A DNA stretch of 64,000 nucleotides from Escallonia rubra (Eukaryota; Streptophyta; Magnoliopsida; Escalloniales; Escalloniaceae): positions 1-64,000 of the forward strand of contig JAVXUO010003069.1 in assembly GCA_033065855.1 (NCBI GenBank), in the 5' to 3' direction. The notes beneath the pieces are model-generated. The model was not told the DNA's origin and made no database searches. It was given only the letters and a program-made list of their open reading frames with translations. Positions 1 through 14,550 of this stretch are shown piece after piece (positions within the stretch are counted from its first letter, which is position 1; every line of letters begins with the position of its first letter). The position numbers were made by a program, and so were the translations under genes.

Positions 1-890
1 AGAGAGAACAAGTTGCAGCTTACCCGCATAATTGAGTTGTTTTGCAGTCCAACTTTGCGCCCTTTGTAATCATGTTGGTCAAAGCAGTTCAGTCTTCCCT
101 CTTTAGTCTAGTATTAATCGAGGGTACAGTTGAATACCTGTCAGGTAGAGAACCAAGACGGATACCAATATTTTGAGCAAGGCTTTGCTTAACATCATCT
201 AGGAAAATAGTGCTCCTTTGTAGATTCACCTTAAGACCAGAGAGAGCAGAGAACTCATCCAGGGCTTGCTCAACAATATCTAGAGATTGAGAATCAGCTC
301 CAGCCAAGATGAAAAGATAGTCAGCAAACATTAGGTGATTAATAGCTAGCTCAGCACATTTGGGATGAAATGTGAAACCAGGTAGAGCTGTGTATTTGTC
401 CATAATCCTGGAAATTGCTCCCATGACTAGAATGAACAAATAAGGGGAGAGTGGGTCACCTTGTCTCAATCCCCTCTTGCTAGGAAAACAACCTTTGCAT
501 TTGACCATCAATGATTGAAGAGAACATCATGGAAATGCATTCTCTGATCCGATGTACCATTTGTTCAGGGAAGTCCATATGTTCGAGGACAACAATTAGA
601 AATTGCCAGTTAATGGTGTCGTAAGCCTCCGAGACAAGAATTGGAAATGCATTCTCTGGACTATGATCTTAGAAAGGATCTTGTAAGTTGTATTGCAACA
701 GGCTATAGGCCTAAAATCCCTCGTAGTGTTAGAAGATTGAACTTTAGCGATTAGGCTTAGGAAAGTAGAGTTCCATTCCTTTAAGATTCTCCTATCAAGT
801 TTCATGAAAAAAACCAGCAGAGTAGCTATCAGGTCCAGGAGCTTTGTTTTTGCTAATGGAAAAAACAGCTTGATAAATTTCCATGCCAAT
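1..890 (-). pseudogene. LINE reverse transcriptase domain, broken
   Basis: Reverse transcriptase of the LINE, which copies element RNA at the nicked target. The fingers part reads LIAKVQSSNTTRDFRPIACC and follows a KAPGPDSY stretch (about 600-890). The palm part (89-511) has GLRQGDPLSPYLF. The catalytic box reads FADYLFIL where L1 enzymes have FADD, so the second aspartate is gone. The thumb side continues to the window edge in another frame as SWTAKQLNYAGKLQLVLS (positions 1-54). Frame changes between these blocks and the loss of the aspartate show it cannot work. Confidence 0.9.
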
Positions 891-1296: not shown

Positions 1297-2465
1297 TTCC
1301 TGTTGCACCAGCCCCTCACCCACCAAATTTTCACCACTTTCATTGTGGACGAATAGAACTTTGGCTCTAGCGTGATGAGCATTCATCTTTTTGTGAAAAT
1401 ATCTGGTATTCATATCGGAAAGAAGCTTTCCTCAGGTAGGGCGTAGGGCCAACTCCAACTAGTCTTGAGAGCATTCCTCATTTGACTCCTGAGCTGTGAG
1501 TTCTTCGAGTCCTCAGCTAATTTAGCTTTGCATTCCAATAGTAAATTCTTAGCTTGATGAGCCCTTCGAGAAATGCTGCTATACAATTTACTGTTTAGCT
1601 TTTTGAGGCAAGGTTTCAACCTTCGGAGTTTGAGAGCAAGTCTAAGCATAAGACTATGGTTGTTGCCAGGATCCTTCAGAGTGGGCTTAGATTGGCTACG
1701 CTTCATCCAGTAGTTGAAAATTTTGAAAGGAAGCTTCCTTTGATAAACACATGGCTCAATGCTGGTAATAATAGGACTATAGTCAGATATATCAGGGTAT
1801 ACAGCCTCAGCAGCAGTTCCATGACACAATTGCAGCGAAGGATCGTTAAGGAAAAGCCTATCCAATTTGCTCTGGATATTTGGACCTTCATCTGATTGGT
1901 TGTCTGAAGTGAAATAGAAACCAACAGTGTTAGCTTCCGCCATCTAGAGAAGATTCAGGCAATTAGCAAAATCCATCATAGCCGTACCATTAACAGGTTC
2001 TCCCCTTGCCTCTCACTAGCTTCCCTTACAATATTAGAGTCTCCCATTATCAGCCGGGCTTGGTTTCGGATGAGAGAGTAAAGATAGTTGAGGTCGTGCC
2101 ACAACTCAGTTCTTTCATCATAATTGTACCCATAAACTCCAGTCATATAGAAAGACTTGCCAGTAGCGAAGTGAGTGAAAGAGCTAGTCATCACTGGATT
2201 AAAAGACCAAAACAGGGTACATGTAAGTACAAATGGATTCCAACTAAGCCCGGCTCTCCCTACACTGTCGCCACGCTAATTATGAAGCAGCTCCCACTAA
2301 GGTAAACAAAATTCAGCCACCTTTTTTTTTTTTATCTGATTCTGTCTAACTCTGTTCTCCTCTAGGCAAAGCTAAGATAGTTTTTACCGTCTAACTAGGT
2401 TTTTAACGGCCTTTTGCTTAAGAATGAAATCTGAACTTCTAATATTACGTACTCCAAAGTACAGC
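1192..2465 (-). pseudogene. LINE endonuclease and linker, broken
   Basis: The endonuclease nicks target DNA. From the N-terminal side: a worn start near 2,460-2,340 with a QKAVKNL-like stretch, then GVYGYNYDERTELWHDLN and LIMGDSNIV (2,194-1,976; the usual form is GDFNIV), then SKLDRLFLND and SDYSPI (1,943-1,750), the last matching the usual SDHSPI box. The linker begins NTRYFHKKMNAHHARAKV (1,413 downward), the conserved block before the reverse transcriptase. The pieces lie in different frames, so the domain is not functional. Confidence 0.85.
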
Positions 2466-3770
2466 ATTGATCATTTTATGGAATGAGTACCTCTAGTAGA
2501 GGTAGTTGATTTGGTCCCTTGAATAGTAGGAGTTTTCTTATCCCTTGCTTTTCTACCGGCCACCATCTTAAAATCATGAGCTTGTTCAGCTATAGCTAGA
2601 TTAGATTTCAGGAGTCCTTCAAGCTGCTGAGGGAGTTCAAAAGCATTGGGAGATTGTACAATAGGCTCAATGATACCACTAAAAGCCCCTTCCCATTCCA
2701 GCACCCTTCCAGGACTGTGATCCAATTCATTAATAAGTGGCACCAGTACGTAACTGGGGCTCTGTTTGTCCACCTGAAGCTGTTTTGCTATCTCTGTCTA
2801 TGTTGTGAGCTGATTCTAGTAGCTGCAATGGCATAGATTCTCTATTGGCTTCAACGTTTTGTTTAAATGCTTTGGAATCCATTCCTGACGTGCCTGCTTT
2901 CTTTGGCGTTTAGAGATAGCATCATTCTGGCCAAAGACTTCGCAGTGTCTACAGCGATAAGGCAACCATTCATACTCCGCTTGCTGCATATAAGTTGACT
3001 CGTGAGGACCAGTGATAGGAATTTCTTTAGGCAATGAAGCTCTAGCCTTAATTTCAACAAAGACTCTAGCATAAGTCATGCGTTCTTTGGTTGCAGTCAT
3101 TCAAAGTGGCTTCCCAATGGCACTAGCGATTTTACTCAGTAAGTGTGTGGACCATAAATGTAGCTGGAGACTAGAAAGCCTCACCCACACGAGAACAGTT
3201 GTCACTCCTCTTTCAGAACGAGGGGTTTATTGTAAGAGACCAAGGACCTTGCTCTCCAAAGCTTGGGCTCTCGATCAAATCAGAATTTTCTAACATAAAG
3301 ATGAAAACCCCAGTTTCAAGCAAACTAAGCTTAACAGTTCCAAATGATTTCCGTTTTCGTTCTATGAAACGCTGCATGATCTGAAAAGAGGGCCTAAATC
3401 CCAGGACATAACCAACTGCTGCATATTCCCATTGCTTAAGTTCTTCTACGGCTTCCTCCTCTGTGCATGAGACTGTTTATTCCTTGCTCACTTACAGGTT
3501 CTACGTAGTAGAGTTGAGCCCGAGGTTTTATCTCGGTTGGGAGCTTACAACTTTTGCCCGAGTACGGGCAGAAGGGCTTGATTTTTTTGCGTGTTTTGAC
3601 TGTAGAGGGGGAAAGTCGCTCTCTTCATATGAATCAGAGCGCTGACCATTTTGCTGATGTGGCAACTCATGCTGATATGGATCATCTTGCTTAGTACTTT
3701 GCTGACGTGTATGAGTTTGACGTGTCATCAAAGGTGGGGCACCACCCCCTAGCTGAAGGGTGCTTCCAAG

Positions 3771-4580
3771 AAGGAGCGGAGCCAGGATTTCATCCGAGAG
3801 GGGGCTAAATATATATCGAAATTAATAATTATTTTTATTAGTAAAATAGCAACAACAAAAAAATGCATTTTTCGACAAAACACAAATTAATACGAAAAAA
3901 CATCCAAAAAGTCATATTTAAAGTTTGGAAGTTGGAACATACTTGTCACTGAGTCGCCGGTCGCCGGAGTTTTGGCCGCCGGTCGCCGGAGTTTAGCCGC
4001 CGGTGAACTGTTGGAGTGAAGGCAGTACAACCGAAGTCGCCGACTCGCCGTCGGCGTAGATCCGAGGTCACTGGGTCCTTGCCGCCGGCGGTGGACCGTT
4101 GGAGTGAAGACTGAAGACTCTCCGTCGCCGACTCTCCGTCGCCGACTTGCCGTCGCCGTAGATCCGGGGTCAGTGGGTGCAGTTGCCGAGTCGCCGTCGC
4201 CCGTCGCCGACCGTCGGCGTAGTCGCGTAGATGAAGATCTAGAAAACGAGCCCGTGAGTCCGTGACCGTGAGGCGCCGTCGCCCGTCGCGCCGAAGTACG
4301 TTCGTCGTGGGTGGGTGCCGCCGTGCCGGAGGACGGGAGGAGTGAGCCGGAGTGAGGCGCCGGCCGCCGGTCGGTGTCTCGGTTGCCGGTCGGTGACTGC
4401 CGACTGGTGAGAACTGAGAAGAGGCTTGGTCGCCGGAGAGAGAGAGAGAGCCGAAGAGAGAGAGAGAGAGAAACGAAAAAGTGTGAAAAAAAACTATATA
4501 TATATATATATATTTTTTTTTTTTTCAAAATCTGACAGGGGGCTATAGCCCCCTCTCGTACATACGTAGCTCCGCCGGTG
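3771..4580. repeat. Non-autonomous hAT-like element, copy 1
   Basis: Begins AAGGAGCGGAGCCAGG and ends CGTAGCTCCGCCGGTG. The subterminal inverted matches extend through AGAGGGGGCTA on the left and TAGCCCCCTCT on the right. The interior is unusually GC-rich, made of many GTCGCCG / GCCGGTCGCC motifs, followed by a GA microsatellite and a TA microsatellite near the right end. The 236-codon minus-strand frame across it is low-complexity and shows no known domain. Confidence 0.85.
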
Positions 4581-4947
4581 CATGGAGGGGCTGACATGAG
4601 GATTTAATTTCTGGGTTCATGTGAGTGTTTGGGAAGGTTTATAGGTGTGTAATGAAGGGAGGAGAAGGCCTACAAATAGCCATGAAAGAAGGACAGCAAG
4701 TGTGTGTTTTTGTTGGTGGAACAAGTGCGTAGGGTCTGTGTTTGAGGAGAAGAAGAGGCTGCCAACACAGCCCATATAAAAACTGTGTATGTGTGTGTAC
4801 AAACAGCGTGGGTATGTGAAGGATGAATATGTGTAGATGTGTGAGTGATATGAGAAGCTGAGCCTGTTGTGAGGTTTGTGTATATATTTTTGTGGGTGTA
4901 TGGTGCATAGATGAGTGTATATATGTTTCATTTATGTGAGGGAGTGT
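4581..4947. other. Captured 367-bp genomic segment inside the composite hAT unit
   Basis: This segment is the reverse complement of 8,489-8,855 with only a few differences (for example TTTCATTTATG against TATCATTTATG). It belongs to the AC-rich repeat DNA seen at 7,931-8,870. It has no transposon ends of its own and no recognisable gene. The 104-codon frame shared by both copies is AC-driven low complexity. Confidence 0.9.
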
Positions 4948-5750
4948 CAGGGGCGGAGCCAGGATTTCATCCGAGAGGGGGCTAAATATATATCGAAATT
5001 AATAATTATTTTTATAAGTAAAATAGCAACAACAAAAAAATGCATTTTTCGACAAAACACAAATTAATACGAAAAAACATCCAAAAAGTCATATTTAAAG
5101 TTTGGAAGTTGGAACATACTTGTCACTGAGTCGCCGGTCGCCGGAGTTTTGGCCGCCGGTCGCCGGAGTTTAGCCGCCGGTGAACTGTTGGAGTGAAGGC
5201 AGTACAACCGAAGTCGCCGACTCGCCGTCGGCGTAGATCCGAGGTCACTGGGTCCTTGCCGCCGGCGGTGGACCGTTGGAGTGAAGACTGAAGACTCTCC
5301 GTCGCCGACTCTCCGTCGCCGACTTGCCGTCGCCGTAGATCCGGGGTCAGTGGGTGCAGTTGCCGAGTCGCCGTCGCCCGTCGCCGACCGTCGGCGTAGT
5401 CGCGTAGATGAAGATCTAGAAAACGAGCCCGTGAGTCCGTGACCGTGAGGCGCCGTCGCCCGTCGCGCCGAAGTACGTTCGTCGTGGGTGGGTGCCGCCG
5501 TGCCGGAGGACGGGAGGAGTGAGCCGGAGTGAGGCGCCGGCCGCCGGTCGGTGTCTCGGTTGCCGGTCGGTGACTGCCGACTGGTGAGAACTGAGAAGAG
5601 GCTTGGTCGCCGGAGAGAGAGAGAGAGCCGAAGAGAGAGAGAGAGAACCGAAAAAGTGTGAAAAAATACTATATATATATATATATTTTTTTTTTCAAAA
5701 TCTGACAGGGGGCTATAGCCCCCTCTCGTACATACGTAGCTCCGCCGGTG
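4948..5750. repeat. Non-autonomous hAT-like element, copy 2
   Basis: Same sequence and orientation as copy 1, with single-base differences and small length changes in the homopolymer and dinucleotide tracts. It begins CAGGGGCGGAGCCAGG, probably the intact terminus, and ends GCTCCGCCGGTG. The near identity of the copies suggests they came from one recent parent. Confidence 0.87.
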
Positions 5751-6117
5751 CTTCCAAGAACGATAGAGTCTGGTTCATCTTTCTCGAAACAGACATCCTT
5801 TTCTCGCGCTGCACCTAGCATAGCGAGTTCACGCGCCCCCAAATCTCCATGTTCTTCAAGCCTCTGAGCTTGTTCTTTTTTCTGAGCGATCAGCTGGTTG
5901 TTAGGTTTTAGATTTGGCCTGTTTAAAATAATGTAAGTTAATGCTCAGATAATTAATGATTTGAAAGGATTGGCGCATTATAGGCTATAGTACCGACTTA
6001 GATTTTATGGACCAAGGCATTATCGGTTATAAGTCATTGCAAGCTGTAAGAAAACATTCTTGATATTGATTTATCTTAATCTTCGGTTCTTAGTGAATAC
6101 AGACGCCTATAAAAATA

Positions 6118-6465
6118 ATTACAGATGCCTTTAAGTGCGCCTCTTTCCGCATCACAGAGAATCGACAAAGTACTGTTCCACTAGTTACAGAAAACTTGAA
6201 GTGCATTTGCTCCTGCTGCGCAAAGAAAGAACTTACAGGCAGCTTTAACAAGAGTCACAGACTAGGGTAAAAGCGTATGTCTCTGCTGCGCACGAAAAGA
6301 CGTCGCAGACTTCTGTACGAATAGTTACAGACGAATTCAAGTTCGTTTGATTCTGATTTGCAAACAAAGAACGTGCAGAGGACCGTATTACTTGTTACAG
6401 AAGGCTGCAAGTGTGCTGGCTCTGCTCCGCATGAACACAAATTGCAGATGTCTGCATGTGTTACA
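6118..6465. repeat. Diverged tandem repeat, about 70 bp, five units
   Basis: Units start with (G)TTACAGA at about 6,118, 6,184, 6,254, 6,324 and 6,394, with a last start at 6,460. Spacings are 66, 70, 70, 70 and 66 bp. Each unit has AAGT or AAGC, then a CTGCTGCGCA-like core, then a GCAGA or ACAGG stretch. The units differ at many places, so the array is old. It lies about 170 bp beyond the N-terminal end of LINE ORF1, on the side where the LINE's 5' untranslated region would be. Confidence 0.75.
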
Positions 6466-7930
6466 GACTGTAATTGAGGTTAGGCACCTATTCTATCCTA
6501 CTTAAGGAAGTGGTTTACGGGAGAAATTATTCACGACTAAATCCATTTTGGTTTGAGTTCAAGCATCCAGGGTTGAATTGCACAAGTATGCCTACGAAAG
6601 CCCTCCTTTCAGCTCCTAAGATAGTGGCTGTTTTTCCTATTTGTTTTGGGCTTGCTTTACCCAGGTACTACTACGTTCTTGCCTTAGGCTACTGCGCCTA
6701 ACTAGATTTGACTAACCTTTATGTCCGCGGGTGTGGGTATCTTCTTCTACTAGTGATCTTCTTGTAGTGGACAAAGTGGCTTAATTGAACATATTGAGTT
6801 TAAGGGACACTGGCTTCATTCCTGTCCCAACAGCAAGGTAGGTGGGATCCTCTTCTAATGCTTAACTAGATGCAACAGACTATTTTGAATCAAAATTATC
6901 GTAATTCGAGGAATCCTAAGGGTGAGGTTTAGGATTTGATCCTGAAGTTAGAACTGAAAATCCCTGGTGATAAAAAAGATTGGTGTTGAACGAAGGATGC
7001 GATTGTTGGCTCTCCAATCCTCTAAGTTATGAAACTGAACTAGCATTATATTCTTTTTCTCTCTCGACGATGACATGACAAAAAGTTTTGTAATCAACCC
7101 TTATTTGAGAATCGATGAAAGCCTTGATAAGTTTTTTTAAAATTTTTTTTTTTTGTTGATAAAAATGAATCCAAGTTCGATGTTTCCAACAATTAAGCTG
7201 ATAATACAAATGCTTCAATATTGTTTTGTAGAAAATTCAAGCCCAAAGAGCAAAGCATAGACATAGAGGTAGGGCCAAGAACGAGGGCAGCAACTTAAAA
7301 GATGCCTTTTGAAACCAAAGTTGAGAACTCATTAACTTGTTCTTAATTGAAAATCACGTATGCTCCTTAATGCGTAACGATATCCAAAAATTCATAATAA
7401 ATTACAACAAAACACTTTTATTGCTTCAAATCTTATAAAAGTCAAAAATATTAATTTTCTGAAATTTTGAATATTTTTGAATTAAAATAATTTCTTTAAA
7501 TGCAAGAAAACCCATAAATAGCCATAATTACGTCCAGTTGCAAAATAAGTCCCATAATTTTTGTAATAGATTTCAAATATGTATAAAAATTATAGAAATT
7601 TAAATTAGAATTTAAAAGGCACTAAAATTATTTTTAAATTATTCATTTTGTTGAAACTAATGCGATACAGAAACTATAGCATATCAACTCTAAAAATCGT
7701 CAAACTTAATCTGGGACTTTTTTATATTATAAAAACATTAATCTAATTTTTACAAAACATTTTCATGAGTTTAAAGGCTCAAAAGAATTTTATAAATCTG
7801 AAATTTTAGAAAATATAACAAATACATACGTCATCAAAAAAATATGAAAATTTAACAAATTTCTAGTATTACCCTACGACTCTTGCCGTAAAGTTTCAAC
7901 ATTTTTTTAACTAGCGTACAATACCCAACA
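6466..7930. other. AT-rich stretch without recognised genes
   Basis: No frame here resembles a known protein. 6,466-6,990 is mixed sequence. 7,380-7,880 is strongly AT-rich with many runs of A and T and resembles worn LTR or intergenic repeat DNA. Confidence 0.5.
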
Positions 7931-8870
7931 GTCATGTGCACAGTGCTCATCACCTTCATCTCTTCTTTCAGCTTTTGTCCAAAAAATCCGGAACACTCAC
8001 TCTCTCTCTCTCTCATGGAAGCTCCCTTTTCTCCTTTTTTTTTTTATTTTTCAACTCACTCTAATACAATCAAAGCACTCTCTCATCACCCACAAACACT
8101 CAAACTATTTACACTCATAGCAAAACCCCATTTATAGTGCACTTCACATTTCAGCAGACACTGCACTCACACCCACATGCACAACACAACACATGCACTC
8201 ATCTTTTCCACATACCCACTGCCGTCTTCCAGTTCATTTACCTGCACACCTCACCAACCACTTTCACATTCACCTCCTGTATTCCCATAAAACCCATCAC
8301 ACACTCATGCACACACCCTCATTCTATATCTATCTCCCATGCCCACTGCCGTGCCGTGAAGCAGTGGTCTTGCTCCCTTTTCTCTCTCTCTTTTTTTTTA
8401 CATCTACTCTACACTTGAACCCTTCCCCCTCCTTTCACACAATAGAGCTACTGCTTCCCTTTTGCTCTCTCTTCTCCTTCTTTACATCACACTCCCTCAC
8501 ATAAATGATACATATATACACTCATCTATGCACCATACACCCACAAAAATATATACACAAACCTCACAACAGGCTCAGCTTCTCATATCACTCACACATC
8601 TACACATATTCATCCTTCACATACCCACGCTGTTTGTACACACACATACACAGTTTTTATATGGGCTGTGTTGGCAGCCTCTTCTTCTCCTCAAACACAG
8701 ACCCTACGCACTTGTTCCACCAACAAAAACACACACTTGCTGTCCTTCTTTCATGGCTATTTGTAGGCCTTCTCCTCCCTTCATTACACACCTATAAACC
8801 TTCCCAAACACTCACATGAACCCAGAAATTAAATCCTCATGTCAGCCCCTCTATGGTTGTCCTCTCTCTC
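7931..8870. repeat. AC-rich repeat DNA with GGCAGCC motifs
   Basis: Strongly strand-biased: C, A and T dominate the plus strand, with many CACA, CTCT and ACCCAC runs. It includes the twin (8,489-8,855) of the segment captured in the composite hAT unit. The motif TTGGCAGCCTC occurs here (about 8,669) and in similar AC-rich DNA at 48,118-48,490 and 50,640-51,500. The overlapping frames of 60-110 codons in it are products of base bias, not genes. The repeat family is unknown; it could be the untranslated leader or LTR of a retroelement. Confidence 0.55.
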
Positions 8871-8913
8871 TCTCTAAGCCCCTATACACATGTCTATGAG
8901 CACATAGTGGCTG

Positions 8914-10235
8914 TGACGACCCATGTCGTCAATCACCCAATTCAATATTTTCAAACAAAATCACAATGCAATTCCAATCAGATTACAAGACCCAAGTGGC
9001 TTATATTATATCATCAACACAATTACAAGACCCAAGTGGCTTATATTATATCATCAACAAAATTACAACAGTCTCCCATTAGATTACAAATATTTCAAAA
9101 ACTCCAAAACTGCAAGTCCCGCTCACATCCCTGCTTGCATGTGCTCATCTAATTAATCATCTGCATTGGAAGGGTAAATGATGGGGAGTGAGCTGGGTAG
9201 CCCAGTAAGTGGAATAATCATAGCACCATAAGATCAGAATCAAACACGCTAAACAATTAGACATCAGTCAATATATTTGACGGTCAAACCGTCAACACAA
9301 CCGTGACTTAGTACCCCAAACAATTAGTAAACTAATTCAATATTCAGGTTGAACATAACACTTCAGCATCTTGCTTCTGGTATCCTCAAAGGGATTCGCC
9401 AAAGCTTAGTTGTATCATAACATATCATGCACATACACAAATCACCGGAGCACTGTCATTGATCAAAAGTACTTAAGCCACGTCCCGCAAACGTATTTCA
9501 AAAACAAGATATTTATCAGCATCCAAAACAAAGTATTCGAGCAAGATTTCAGAACAATAGTGTTTAGGAGTACGAGGAACGTTAAGAAATAAATATCCAC
9601 GTGGCATACAAGAATAGTGATATGGAATTCCCCATACCTAATTCACGAAGAATCCACTTATACAATTGCCACAATCAGGCCCTATGATTCCTTTTTCATA
9701 AGCGCATCTAATCTTCTTCTCTCATTCTTTAGGTGTCTATATACTGAAGAAATTCAAGGATAACTTAAATAATTTGAAAAGATCAAAGGCCTATTTATAA
9801 AAATTTCTAAGAAGCACGAGGTGGAAAGAAACACGATGTGGTGAGACAAGGCTATGCCACCAAGCAAGCACAACAATGCTAACCAAAGCACGACAAGAAA
9901 TTCACTGCTTAAAATTCATTAAATGAGCACCAACATGAATTCAAATAACAGAACAATAAGTTTTCCATAACAAATAAGCATACTGATATAATTCATCACT
10001 CAGAATTCCACAATAGCCACAAAGAAATAGCCAAAACAATTACAAACAGTTATAGAATCTAGGCATAACAATTCAGAAAAAATAATGCAAACAATTGTTG
10101 AATTTGCTCAACATGCAATAACAGGTAAGCATCGATAGATTTCAAAATAACCGATTTAGATTCAATATTGGGGTTTTCTTGGCAATAGCATGCTGATATC
10201 AATGCATAATTCAATGTTCGACAATAGCCATAAGT
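8914..10235 (+). mobile_element. LTR-like fragment beginning TGTGACGACCC, decayed
   Basis: Starts TGTGACGACCC, a common start of plant Ty3/gypsy LTRs. Its right part (about 9,890-10,235) is a diverged direct repeat of 61,480-61,820, sharing for example ACTGATATAATTCATCACTC and GAATCTAGGCATAACAATTC. No coding region is seen. It is an old, broken fossil whose end is covered by the next insert. Confidence 0.5.
8982..9061. repeat. 40-bp tandem duplication
   Basis: Two adjacent 40-bp copies beginning ATTACAAGACCCAAGTGGCT at 8,982 and 9,022, with the start of a third at 9,062. The copies are nearly identical. Confidence 0.9.
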
Positions 10236-10526
10236 TGTCACGACCCCAACCCACAGCTGGGCCCGTGAGCTAGGTCTGTGACTGGTCATAGACCCACTGG
10301 ACTCCAACCAAGGGCTCTGCTAAGCCTTACACACTAAAACTAATATGAACAGCAGCGGAAATTAAACCTTTACAACTTTAAATAAAAATCTACTATTTGA
10401 ATGTCAATTACAATACTTCTCACAAGAACACATATACTAGAACTCAACTCGTCTAAAAGCAATGTTCGGTGCTCCGCCCTAAAGTTCTGATTCCCATATT
10501 CATCGCCATCACCTTACCTTCAAGAT
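10236..10526 (+). mobile_element. LTR-like fragment beginning TGTCACGACCC
   Basis: A second LTR-type start, TGTCACGACCCCAACCCAC, interrupts the repeat that ends at 10,235 and is itself cut by the copia element at 10,527. It has no coding content. The DNA right of the copia element (17,377-18,245) has the look of the same class of LTR and may be its continuation (inference). Confidence 0.4.
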
Positions 10527-11761
10527 TGAAATTAAAACAAAAAAGATAACCCTAGAGAGGGGGTGAATAGGGTTTTAAGACTACTTTAAAAGTTAACAAG
10601 TAAATGATACAAACTTAGAGAGGATATGAATGACACTTGAAAAAGCAACAAACAACAAACCCCAATCTCAATAACTTAAGTAATCAAACTAACCAATCTC
10701 AACACAAATGTAAAACAATAATGTAAAGAGAGAAGGGTTTAGAGATACTTGACAAGGAGATTTAAATGGTTCGGCTTGATATACCCTCAAGCCTACGTCC
10801 ACCCCTTCAAGGAAGTCCCTTGAAAGGCCCTAGAATCCACTAGTATGATCTTCCTTACGGGTCAAGATCGAACCTCTTACAATCCATTGATGCTATGCCC
10901 ACATCAAGAACAAGCTTTGACAATCCCAAAGCTCCAAAACTTGACAACCCCGAGCTTTGATACAAGAAACTTTAGATGAAGAAATGTGTACAAGATTTCA
11001 CTCTCAAGAAGTAGATTAATACAAGTTTAAGCACGAGAACAAGAGAGATGAGTGTATGATGACTTATGAAAGTGTATATCTCTCAAATGTAAGCTCACAA
11101 TAAATGCTCTCTTGAAATGGATGAGAAATCAATGAAAAACAAGAGAGATTGAACAATTGCTTTGATCTTTGAGTATATGAAAGATAAGAAAGCTTTGAAT
11201 GCAATTGATGAATCAAAACTATGCCCAAGATGAGTATTTATAAAGTTGGGAATTAATATGACCATTTGGAGTTAGGTGGAGCATTAAATGCGCCAAACGG
11301 TAAATACAGTCGACTGTAATGTGCCATTGCAGTCGACTTCATTCCAATGCAGTCGACTGTAATACCTCACTGCCTAACTTGCAGTCGACTGCATTCCAAT
11401 GCAGTCGACTGCATTCCAGAAAATGCAGTTTCCTTGTTTTCAAAGAATAAAAAAAATTTATGCATGCAAGGGAAACCTATGGGCAAGTTCTAGGTATACA
11501 GTCATCGTAACAATCATCTCTCTATATCTAGTTTACAAAGAAGGAAATAAAAACATTGAAAAATTCAATCGACAAATTCTTTCTTTGATGCGTTTCGTTG
11601 AGAGTCTTTGACCGTGTTGCTTGTTTAATAGTCCGTTTGCATGAGTATAAGATTGTTCCTATTGCTTCATCAACTCAATGCGTGTTAGACAACATAAACA
11701 TCAATGTTGGTTATCATCAAAACCAAATATAATCCTAGGTTAAATAACCGTAGGGTTAACA
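10527..11761 (-). repeat. Copia LTR (1.2 kb)
   Basis: On the minus strand it begins TGTTAACCCTACGGTTATT at 11,761. At 10,527 it has the TG/CA boundary seen beside the primer-binding site at 17,327; both ends then share AAAAAGATAACCCTAGAG and GGGGGTGAATAGGGTTTTA. It contains a cluster of palindromes at 11,307-11,411. Confidence 0.8.
11307..11411. repeat. Cluster of five CAGTCGACTG palindromes in the copia LTR
   Basis: CAGTCGACTG or a one-base variant at 11,307, 11,330, 11,350, 11,382 and 11,402. Several extend to the palindrome GCAGTCGACTGC and are separated by ATTCCAAT-like spacers. They may be a protein-binding or RNA-structure array in the LTR; function is not known from the sequence. Confidence 0.9.
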
Positions 11762-12351
11762 ATATTTTCCTTTTTGACGATGGCAAACATTGATTCAAAT
11801 AATATGAGATATATAAGATAATAAACGCAAAGAAGCATGACAATCTCAATTATAAACCATAGGGGATTTAAAAGAAGAATCATGACGATAAGCTTCCCCT
11901 TTCTTAAGCAATATAGGCTCCCCCTATCTCAAAATAATATATGCTCATATCAAATCCACACAAGTATGAATCAACAATATTTTCTCCCCCTTTTGACATC
12001 ATTGAAAAAGATCAAGGGTGTGTGTGAAAGTGATCAACTTATGTATCCATCCATGGATAATCAATATAGCCAACAAGGGCATTCAAACAAGAAAACATAA
12101 GTACTTGAATACCCATCAAAAGGTGTACCAAACACATTTTACAAAAATAGCACATAAAAAAGAAGTGTAAAGAATTTAGAAATATAAGTGTGTGCAAATC
12201 AATAAAGACAAATGAGATTAAATGAATATCAACAAAATCAATAATTTTGGAAAGAGAAAAATCAACCAAAGCATGCTATAAGCATATGAAATAATGCTCA
12301 AGCATGTGAAGTGCAACTTGCATGATTATGCACAAGAGATATAACTTTTAG
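11762..12351 (-). other. Copia 3' untranslated region with purine tracts
   Basis: Lies between the RNase H end and the LTR. On the minus strand it has purine tracts such as AAAAGGGGGAGAA (11,982-11,994) and others near 11,900-11,930, plus AAAAAGGAAAA next to the LTR start. These are candidate polypurine plus-strand primers. No gene is seen. Confidence 0.6.
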
Positions 12352-14550
12352 TTACATAGGTGAAGACATGCCAAGTTCTCTTTTAAGAGCGGTAAACCTC
12401 TTTGAATCTAAAGGTTTAGTGAAGATATCCGCTAATTGGTGATTTGTGTCCACGAAATCTAGAACAATATCACCTTTTTGCACATGATCACGGATAAAAT
12501 GGTGTTTGATTTCTATGTGCTTAGTGCGTGAATGTTGGATGGAATTTTTGCTCAAGTCAATTGCACTAGTGTTATCGCATAAGATAGGTATGTGATCATA
12601 CTTGAGTCCAAAATCCAAAAGGGTTTGTTTCATCCAAAGAATTTGTGCACAACAAGTACCAACCGCCATATATTCAGCTTCGATGGTAGAGAGTGCAACT
12701 GAGTTTTGCTTTTTGAAACTCCAAGAAACAAGAGAGTGACCTAGGAATTGGCAACCTCCACTGGTACTTTTCCGCTCGGTTTTACAACTGGCATAGTCGG
12801 CGTCGGAGTAACCAATTAGGTAAAAAAAAGATGTGTTTCTAGGAAACCATAACCCTAAATCGTGAGTGCCCTTAAGATATCTAAGGATTCTCTTGACGGC
12901 AACCAAATGAGATTCCTTAGGACAAGCTTGAAATCTAGCACATAAACAAACACTAAACATTATATCGGGTCTACTTGCGGTAAGGTAAAGGAGTGATCCG
13001 ATCTTACCTCGATAGCGCTTAATATCAACACCCTTACCCTTTTCATCTTTATCAAGCTTTAATGAAGAGCTCATTGGAGTGTCAAAAGCATTTGATGCTT
13101 CCATGTCAAATCTTTTAAGTAGCTCTTTGGTGTACTTGGCTTGGTTGATAAAGATTTCATCCTTGCTTTGTTTGATTTGCAATCCAAGGAAGAAGGTGAG
13201 TTCTCCCATCATGCTAATTTCAAACTCCTTACTCATACAAGAAGCAAACTCTTCGCACAAGGATTCATTAGTAGCATCAAATATAATATCATCAACATAA
13301 ATTTGTACCAACAATAAGTCCTTGCCCTTAGATTTTATAAAAAGAGTGGTGTCAAGTTTTCCTCTTGAAAAACCATTTGCTAAAAGAAAACTACTTAGCC
13401 TTTCATACTAAGCTCTAGGAGCTTGTTTTAAACCATAAAGAGCTTTGCTAAGCTTGAAAACATGGTTTGGAAATTTTTCATGTTCAAAGCCAAGAGGTTG
13501 AGCCACATAAACCTCTTCTGAAATAAAACCATTTAGAAAAGCACTATTGACATCCATTTGAAAGAGTTTAAAATCTCTATAGCAAGCAAAAGCTAATAGC
13601 ATTCTAATAGATTCAAGTCTAGCTACCGGTGCATAGGTCTCATCAAAATCAATTCCTTTCTCTTGGTTATAACCTTGGGCCACTAATCTAGCCTTATTTC
13701 TAACCACGACTCCGGATTCATCAAGTTTGTTTCTAAAAATCCATTTTGTGCCTATAATCATAAAGTTTTGAGGTTTAGGCACAAGGGTCCAAACTTGATT
13801 TCTTTCAAATTGAACTAGCTCTTCTTGCATAGCAAGCATCCAAGATTCATGATGTAGAGCTTCAGAGAAGTTCTTCGGTTCAATTTGGGAAAGAAACGCT
13901 AAATTAACATGTTGTTGAAGAGAGCGTCGAGTTCTTACCCCACTCGAAGGATTACCTAAGATTTGATCGCTTGGATGATCCTTTTTGTAAGTCCAATCTT
14001 TTGGTAATGCTTGAGAGTTATCCGAGTTTGAAACATCATTGCTTGCTTCCTTGTCTTCCTCTTGAGAGCTTGATTGTTGCTCTTCTTGAACAATTTCTTT
14101 GGGGTTGTCTTGTAGTGTTTCACTTATATCCAAAGTTCTCATGTCATTGTCCACATCATCTACATTAGCAATGTTAGTCTTCCGAAGAAAAGGATTAGTC
14201 TCATCAAAAGTAACATTAATGGATTCTTCAACAACCAAAGTACTTTTATTATAGACTCTATATGTCATACTATTATTAGAATAACCAAGAAAAATACCCT
14301 CAAAGGTTTTTGAATCAAATTTGCTAAGGTGATCCTTAGTACTTAAAATAAAGCATTTGCAACCAAAGACTCTAAAAAAGCTCACCTTAGGTTTCTTATC
14401 ATTAAAAAGCTCATAGGGATTTTTTAACAAAAATTTTCGCAAGATAACTCTATTGAGAACAAAACAAGCACAATTGACCGCCTCCGCCCAAAAGTACTTA
14501 GGTAAACCATATTCGTTAAGCATTGTTCTTGCCGCTTCTTGCAAAGACAT
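12352..14550 (-). pseudogene. Copia integrase C-terminal part, reverse transcriptase and RNase H, broken
   Basis: The block from 14,550 to 13,408 holds the integrase end (EAARTMLNEYGLPKYFWAEA) and the first part of the reverse transcriptase (NQVWTLVPKPQNFMIIGTKW, then KARLVAQGYNQEKGIDFDET). The block from 13,314 to 12,352 has the catalytic YVDDIIF, then the RNase H region with SDADYASC, STIEAEYMAV and the closing LADIFTKPLD. These are the polymerase parts of a Ty1/copia polyprotein. Fossil, broken. Confidence 0.92.

Follow-up and report, generated by a model that had tools for sequence, protein, structure and literature searches.

In this study, we analysed a stretch of 64,000 nucleotides of contig JAVXUO010003069.1 from Escallonia rubra (hereafter the window) and found two full-length hAT copies in the same orientation, which flank exactly 367 bp of other DNA at positions 3771–5750. 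We propose that this unit is a macrotransposon, i.e. a composite hAT insertion that was mobilised through the left end of copy 1 and the right end of copy 2, and assign this reading a probability of roughly 0.84. The earlier note on this DNA had suggested that transposase used the left end of one copy and the right end of the other and moved the whole block, and this view is supported by a target duplication that is found at the outer edges only, by empty sites and by collinear cargo. The outer-only duplication and the empty sites are the most direct support for insertion as one unit; the structure of the donor and the choice of ends we infer from the product.

Architecture of the unit

The description of two near-identical, same-orientation copies around 367 bp proved correct to the base (Table 1). 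Copies 1 and 2 differ by few substitutions (0 to 1 in 615 sites) and in microsatellite lengths, and the whole unit measures about 1.97 kb. An exact 8-bp duplication at the outer flanks and unmatched inner flanks had also been described, and both are borne out: the two outer flanks read CTTCCAAG, while the inner 8-mers CATGGAGG and GGGAGTGT mismatch at 6 of 8 bases when compared by eye. Neither copy has a target duplication of its own: the 8-mers flanking copy 1 disagree at 4 of 8 bases and those flanking copy 2 at all 8. The pattern of a composite, with direct-orientation elements around DNA and a duplication outside only, is present. An exact 8-mer match arises by chance in 1 of 65,536 cases by simple arithmetic and an empty locus in contig C997 carries exactly one CTTCCAAG at the predicted place, so that chance is a poor explanation of the outer pair.

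Table 1. Coordinates of the composite unit and associated features in the window
Feature	Position	Strand	Remark
Left target-site duplication CTTCCAAG	3763..3770		Single copy at empty sites
hAT copy 1, 810 bp	3771..4580	+	Left terminus decayed to AAGGAGCGG; CAGGGGCGG in C3157
Inner 8-mer CATGGAGG, right of copy 1	4581..4588		Part of captured segment
Captured 367-bp segment	4581..4947	-	Inverted relative to nearest relative 8489–8855
Inner 8-mer GGGAGTGT, left of copy 2	4940..4947		Part of captured segment
hAT copy 2, 803 bp	4948..5750	+	Both termini canonical
Right target-site duplication CTTCCAAG	5751..5758		Matches left duplication
Close relative of captured segment	8489..8855	-	365/367 identical; hAT at neither edge
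RVT_1 reverse transcriptase fragment of host LINE	92..526	-	Pfam, E 1e-10

A lone element of this family normally shows a duplication, since 17 of 21 other elements carry their own with at most one mismatch (14 exact, 3 with one mismatch, the other 4 with two to five), whereas here only the pair does. This control comprised elements with both ends readable. It excluded rows from composites and repeat views of a single element (L049, L083) and took the outermost ends for C1913 and C2709 (by eye for C2709); seven loci at which no more than one end was recognisable (C2637, C2121, C685, C3038, C504, C1010 and C1358) were not countable.

The left terminus in the window is a decayed end, AAGGAGCGG. 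In the second copy of the unit, at C3157:48253–50227, the left terminus is CAGGGGCGGAGCC, identical to that of copy 2, and all four element termini are canonical; judged by this comparison, the change in C3156, the contig of the window, is decay after insertion. At least 55 exact 28-base left ends of the CAGGGGCGGAGCC kind occur among the genome matches listed. The right terminus GCTCCGCCGGTG is typical of the subfamily, with 20 of the 22 places within two mismatches of a 19-base pattern ending in GCCGGTG (the reversed pattern, used as a control, gave 3 matches), while elements of a sister subfamily end in GCCCATG instead. The terminal inverted repeats are short: CAGGGGCGGAGC and the reverse complement of GCTCCGCCGGTG match at 10 of 12 positions by eye.

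Target site and genomic context

The target was searched with the flanks of the window joined without the unit, and all 6 candidates were scored. This yielded four loci, two of them filled (C3156 and C3157) and two empty with one CTTCCAAG each, so that the empty target for which the earlier note had proposed a search is present at two homologous loci. One of these, C997:99313–99641, is identical around the site; the other, C3156:122319–122671 (L033), shows no length change there. The empty sites lack the 367 bp. At the latter locus, 4 of the 6 differences from the joined flanks are substitutions within the ten bases just outside the 8-mer. A single hAT copy at CTTCCAAG, which had been named as a finding that would speak against composite insertion, was found at none of the four loci among the 6 of 6 candidates scored.

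The block had further been described as lying in a LINE, and this holds in so far as an RVT_1 match is present in the window (Table 1). A second RVT_1 match at 599–1078 stays below threshold (E 0.005), and Pfam gave no match for the frame at 1413–1943 nor for five frames nearer the insertion. It is likely that the insertion point itself is inside the LINE.

Both C3156 and C3157 contain the filled unit, and over 3763–5758 their copies are separated by 7 mismatches and 7 gapped bases. With an end overlap of 99.0% over 14.26 kb, we take the two contigs as alleles or a recent duplicate on the strength of their alignment. Between C3156 and C3157 the left flank (1300–3762) shows 2 differences in 2462 sites, against 22 in 2463 between either of them and the empty C997; the right flank (5760–7340) shows 7 in 1580 between C3156 and C3157. 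This comparison left out C3156b in the block 1300–3762 and C997 in the block 5760–7340, where aligned pieces lay too far apart. Since the filled loci are closer to each other than to C997 in the left flank, the insertion appears, judged near the unit, to postdate the split from C997. The relations change farther to the right: over 7341–8480, C3156 differs from C3157 at 25 of 1131 sites and from C997 at 22 of 1140, and over 8860–12300, C3157 differs from C997 at 27 of 3419 sites and from C3156 at 36 of 3420. As C3157 is there nearer to C997 than to C3156, the history of the loci is, as far as these divergences tell, a mosaic. The divergences of these two blocks partly contradict a treatment of C997 as a simple outgroup or allele. 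Farther out, simple collinearity of C997 with the window or C3157 was found in 0 of 6 spot checks, which gave repeat-like matches only.

Two further features of these loci were seen. About 0.2 kb from its empty target, C997 holds a 3.8-kb insertion (C997:95420–99252, corresponding to window 5989–5994) with a DUF4371 frame that contains one internal stop; its ends read CAGGG.../...CCCCTG and its flanks, compared by eye, share only the 5 bp AGTAC. At 1127–1296 the window contains an exact 85-bp tandem duplication, the unit of which, as the alignments suggest, is present once in C997 and in the copy at C3156:114000–130000 and twice in C3157.

Origin of the captured DNA

The 367 bp belong to a dispersed multi-copy sequence with at least 42 matches among 40 of 63 candidates scored, counting partial matches and the unit itself. 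The closest relatives, at 99%, lie in the window itself at 8489–8855 (inverted, 2.7 kb away), at C997:92525–92891 and at C3157:52960–53326, the latter two being positional counterparts of the first; C368 and C1994 follow with 94 and 93% over 365 bp. In these five near-complete relatives, of which three align over 367 bp and two over 365 bp, the sequence continues past both edges and is free of hAT, whereas in the unit the captured DNA ends, left and right, precisely at the termini of the hAT copies. These hAT-free relatives elsewhere, together with junctions exactly at the termini of both copies, support the interpretation given in the earlier note, which had called the enclosed DNA unrelated. 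No breakpoint exists inside the segment, as it aligns without gaps at all 367 positions to the three nearest relatives and is collinear with C368 and C1994.

The segment at 8489–8855 and its counterparts in C997 and C3157 have in common a derived A (CATAGAGG), where the captured copy has G, the state in the more distant relatives C368, C1994 and C2107; at one other position the captured copy has a base of its own. The local copy at 8489–8855 was considered as donor and is probably not the source, since it carries the derived A that the captured copy lacks. Because the captured copy keeps G where the three closest relatives share the A, a sister lineage of these three appears the more likely source.

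A donor locus with two hAT copies around the same 367 bp had been predicted and was not found in the assembly: among 40 of 63 candidates scored, no donor with hAT at an edge of the 367 bp was seen, the five near-complete relatives being hAT-free there. An excision scar was sought with a query in which the two flanks of a donor relative were joined through both inner 8-mers; among 40 of 137 candidates scored, no listed match crosses the joint. Possibly the donor has been lost or excised, or it resides in another haplotype.

Proposed mechanism and competing explanations

As a possible source of transposase, a longer element in C2847 has the same left end and carries DUF4371 by Pfam, a domain which we take to be a mark of hAT transposases. 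Among 150 of 488 candidates scored, at least 16 of the 55 exact left ends have a DUF4371 domain on the other strand at a distance of 1507–1512 bp; for 9 of the 16, the frame listed is open over 825–826 aa and has no stop within the DUF4371 match. For this pairing 24 of the 150 listed DUF4371 places were used, namely those on contigs with a left end, minus one far-off place in C1698. Since DUF4371 frames occur in elements with the same left end, it is plausible that such coding relatives supplied the transposase in trans.

We propose a model in which one hAT copy was present in a relative of the 8489–8855 segment and a second copy then came to lie 367 bp away in the same orientation, perhaps by a local hop. 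Transposase acting in trans, probably from DUF4371-coding relatives, would have brought together the left end of copy 1 and the right end of copy 2. The whole block of about 1.97 kb then inserted into the probable LINE and gave rise to the 8-bp duplication CTTCCAAG, a step shown by the empty sites and by the duplication at the outer edges only. Today both C3156 and C3157 carry the unit, the left end of which has decayed in C3156. Copies 1 and 2 perhaps derive from a local hop but may also be independent insertions from an active family; C2637 and C2121 are likewise within 1 substitution in 473 sites of copies 1 and 2.

The main rival assumes that a single hAT inserted first at CTTCCAAG and was later converted to the copy–367 bp–copy structure by gene conversion or gap repair from a two-hAT donor. 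It predicts an identical final structure, and the two copies, with 0 to 1 substitution in 615 sites, are similar enough to allow such recombination. However, it needs the same two-hAT donor as the composite insertion and an extra event in addition, and the four loci holding the site include no single-copy locus, so that we consider it unlikely. A local tandem duplication or an assembly error that doubled one hAT after insertion would also produce near-identical copies, and the unit does resemble 1.7 repeats of hAT plus 367 bp. Yet a tandem duplication requires the 367 bp beside the hAT at the target, and the absence of this DNA from the empty sites speaks against a local duplication after insertion, the other finding that the earlier note had set against its own proposal. 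One assembly error is unlikely as well, because the unit is present in two contigs that differ at the bases given above, and we regard this explanation as very improbable.

It is similarly hard to credit that the unit arose by reversed-ends transposition with re-replication, which in maize yields composite insertions whose inter-element DNA consists of two outer flanks joined end to end. Such insertions, as described in PMC4270019, likewise have captured DNA between two hAT ends and show an 8-bp duplication. In that reaction the inter-element segment is circularised and the outer flanks are joined (PMC4270019), therefore a breakpoint is expected inside the captured DNA, whereas the 367 bp are collinear with their relatives throughout. 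Composite insertion by the outer ends of copies 1 and 2 thus stays our preferred reading.

Relation to known systems

The earlier note had considered composite transposition seldom documented for plant hAT elements of this kind, which is too strong, since it has been studied in maize Ac/Ds and proposed for Pack-TYPE elements including hAT. Macrotransposons of maize Ac/Ds were reported by Huang and Dooner (2008) and Wang et al. (2022), as cited in PMC3260210, PMC9319602 and PMC9910405, and the reaction has been followed with Ac/Ds (PMC3260210, PMC9910405). In these accounts, as in our unit, the outer ends of two near elements of the hAT superfamily are used, the DNA between them is carried along and an 8-bp duplication results. 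The macrotransposons described there, traced in maize stocks, are large, with sizes of 10.3 kb, 28 kb and up to 100 kb, in contrast to the natural unit of about 2 kb found here, in which both 0.8-kb copies are non-autonomous and belong to a DUF4371-associated family.

Ds-l4-483, a natural compound element of maize, resembles the unit in that foreign DNA separates a regular hAT-like element from a second copy and that the far end bears a copy of the duplication (PMC3260210). As described in that source, its second copy is truncated, its trapped DNA of about 5.5 kb stems from two sources and its first copy is flanked by the duplication, whereas here both copies are full length, copy 1 is without its own duplication and the cargo is one collinear piece. 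The Pack-TYPE model, formulated for all DNA superfamilies and with hAT examples, has host DNA captured by mobilisation of neighbouring insertions (PMC8903248), and the recognition of two close same-family insertions as a single element, as presented there, corresponds to what we propose; among local hAT pairs in maize, 12 of 15 are in the same orientation (PMC8903248). The figure of that model depicts internal ends as deleted or mutated (PMC8903248). In contrast, all four ends are still canonical in C3157, which marks the unit as an early stage. Macrotransposition has been suggested for a P-element MITE in mosquito as well (PMC1562414).

The reaction as such is therefore already known, and the route by which small transposons shuffle host DNA has already been described in plants. 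The unit is a clean, early natural example, since both copies, the four ends, the empty target and the relatives of the cargo are all readable. In the published Pack-TYPE examples, as presented in PMC8903248, capture is deduced from families of products in which the host DNA is already fused. With pre-insertion target, four ends and hAT-free cargo relatives readable in the present case, the succession of steps can be reasoned through base by base, and the unit could be used for testing the choice of a hAT transposase between inner and outer ends. Tentatively, it might represent the first step of Pack-hAT formation, in which outer ends move while inner ends are intact and competent, no prior inner decay is needed and the donor chromosome has lost the segment; we hold this to be possible rather than probable.

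Further elements in the genome

Among 40 of 1574 candidates scored, a query with the whole unit found two places only. There are 402 left ends with at most 3 mismatches (100 listed), and we checked 117 of them, 55 exact ones by script and 62 exact ends of the sister variant by eye, for neighbouring left ends in the same orientation within 10 kb. The other two-copy units for which a search had been suggested did not appear: among these 117 of 402 left ends, a range in which composites with decayed or other ends could be missed, the C3156/C3157 unit is the only composite. Two candidates were rejected, a pair in C1395, in which two 3.9-kb elements have their own duplications (one exact, one 7 of 8), and tandem left ends in C2709 that lie inside one element.

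Several further structures were noted. At C1395:1602700–1614887, two DUF4371-bearing elements of 3.9 kb each share their orientation and are separated by 4.4 kb; by its arrangement this pair is a potential macrotransposon in waiting. At C2709:152721–155031 (L081), one hAT element contains three tandem 500-bp units inside one 8-bp duplication, CATTTGGA; each unit starts with an exact left end, and 494 positions are identical between any two. The 4.2-kb DUF4371-bearing element at C1913:153459–157645 (L079, L080) has a duplicated right end, and the duplication GCTGTCGG is found at the outer right end, not at the inner one. At C2121:241998–242572 (L004, L012), 575 bp of element interior with 1 substitution in 473 sites relative to copy 1 are present without recognisable family ends. 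In the window, finally, an open frame of 351 aa on the minus strand at 12352–13407 presumably resembles Copia reverse transcriptase and RNase H.
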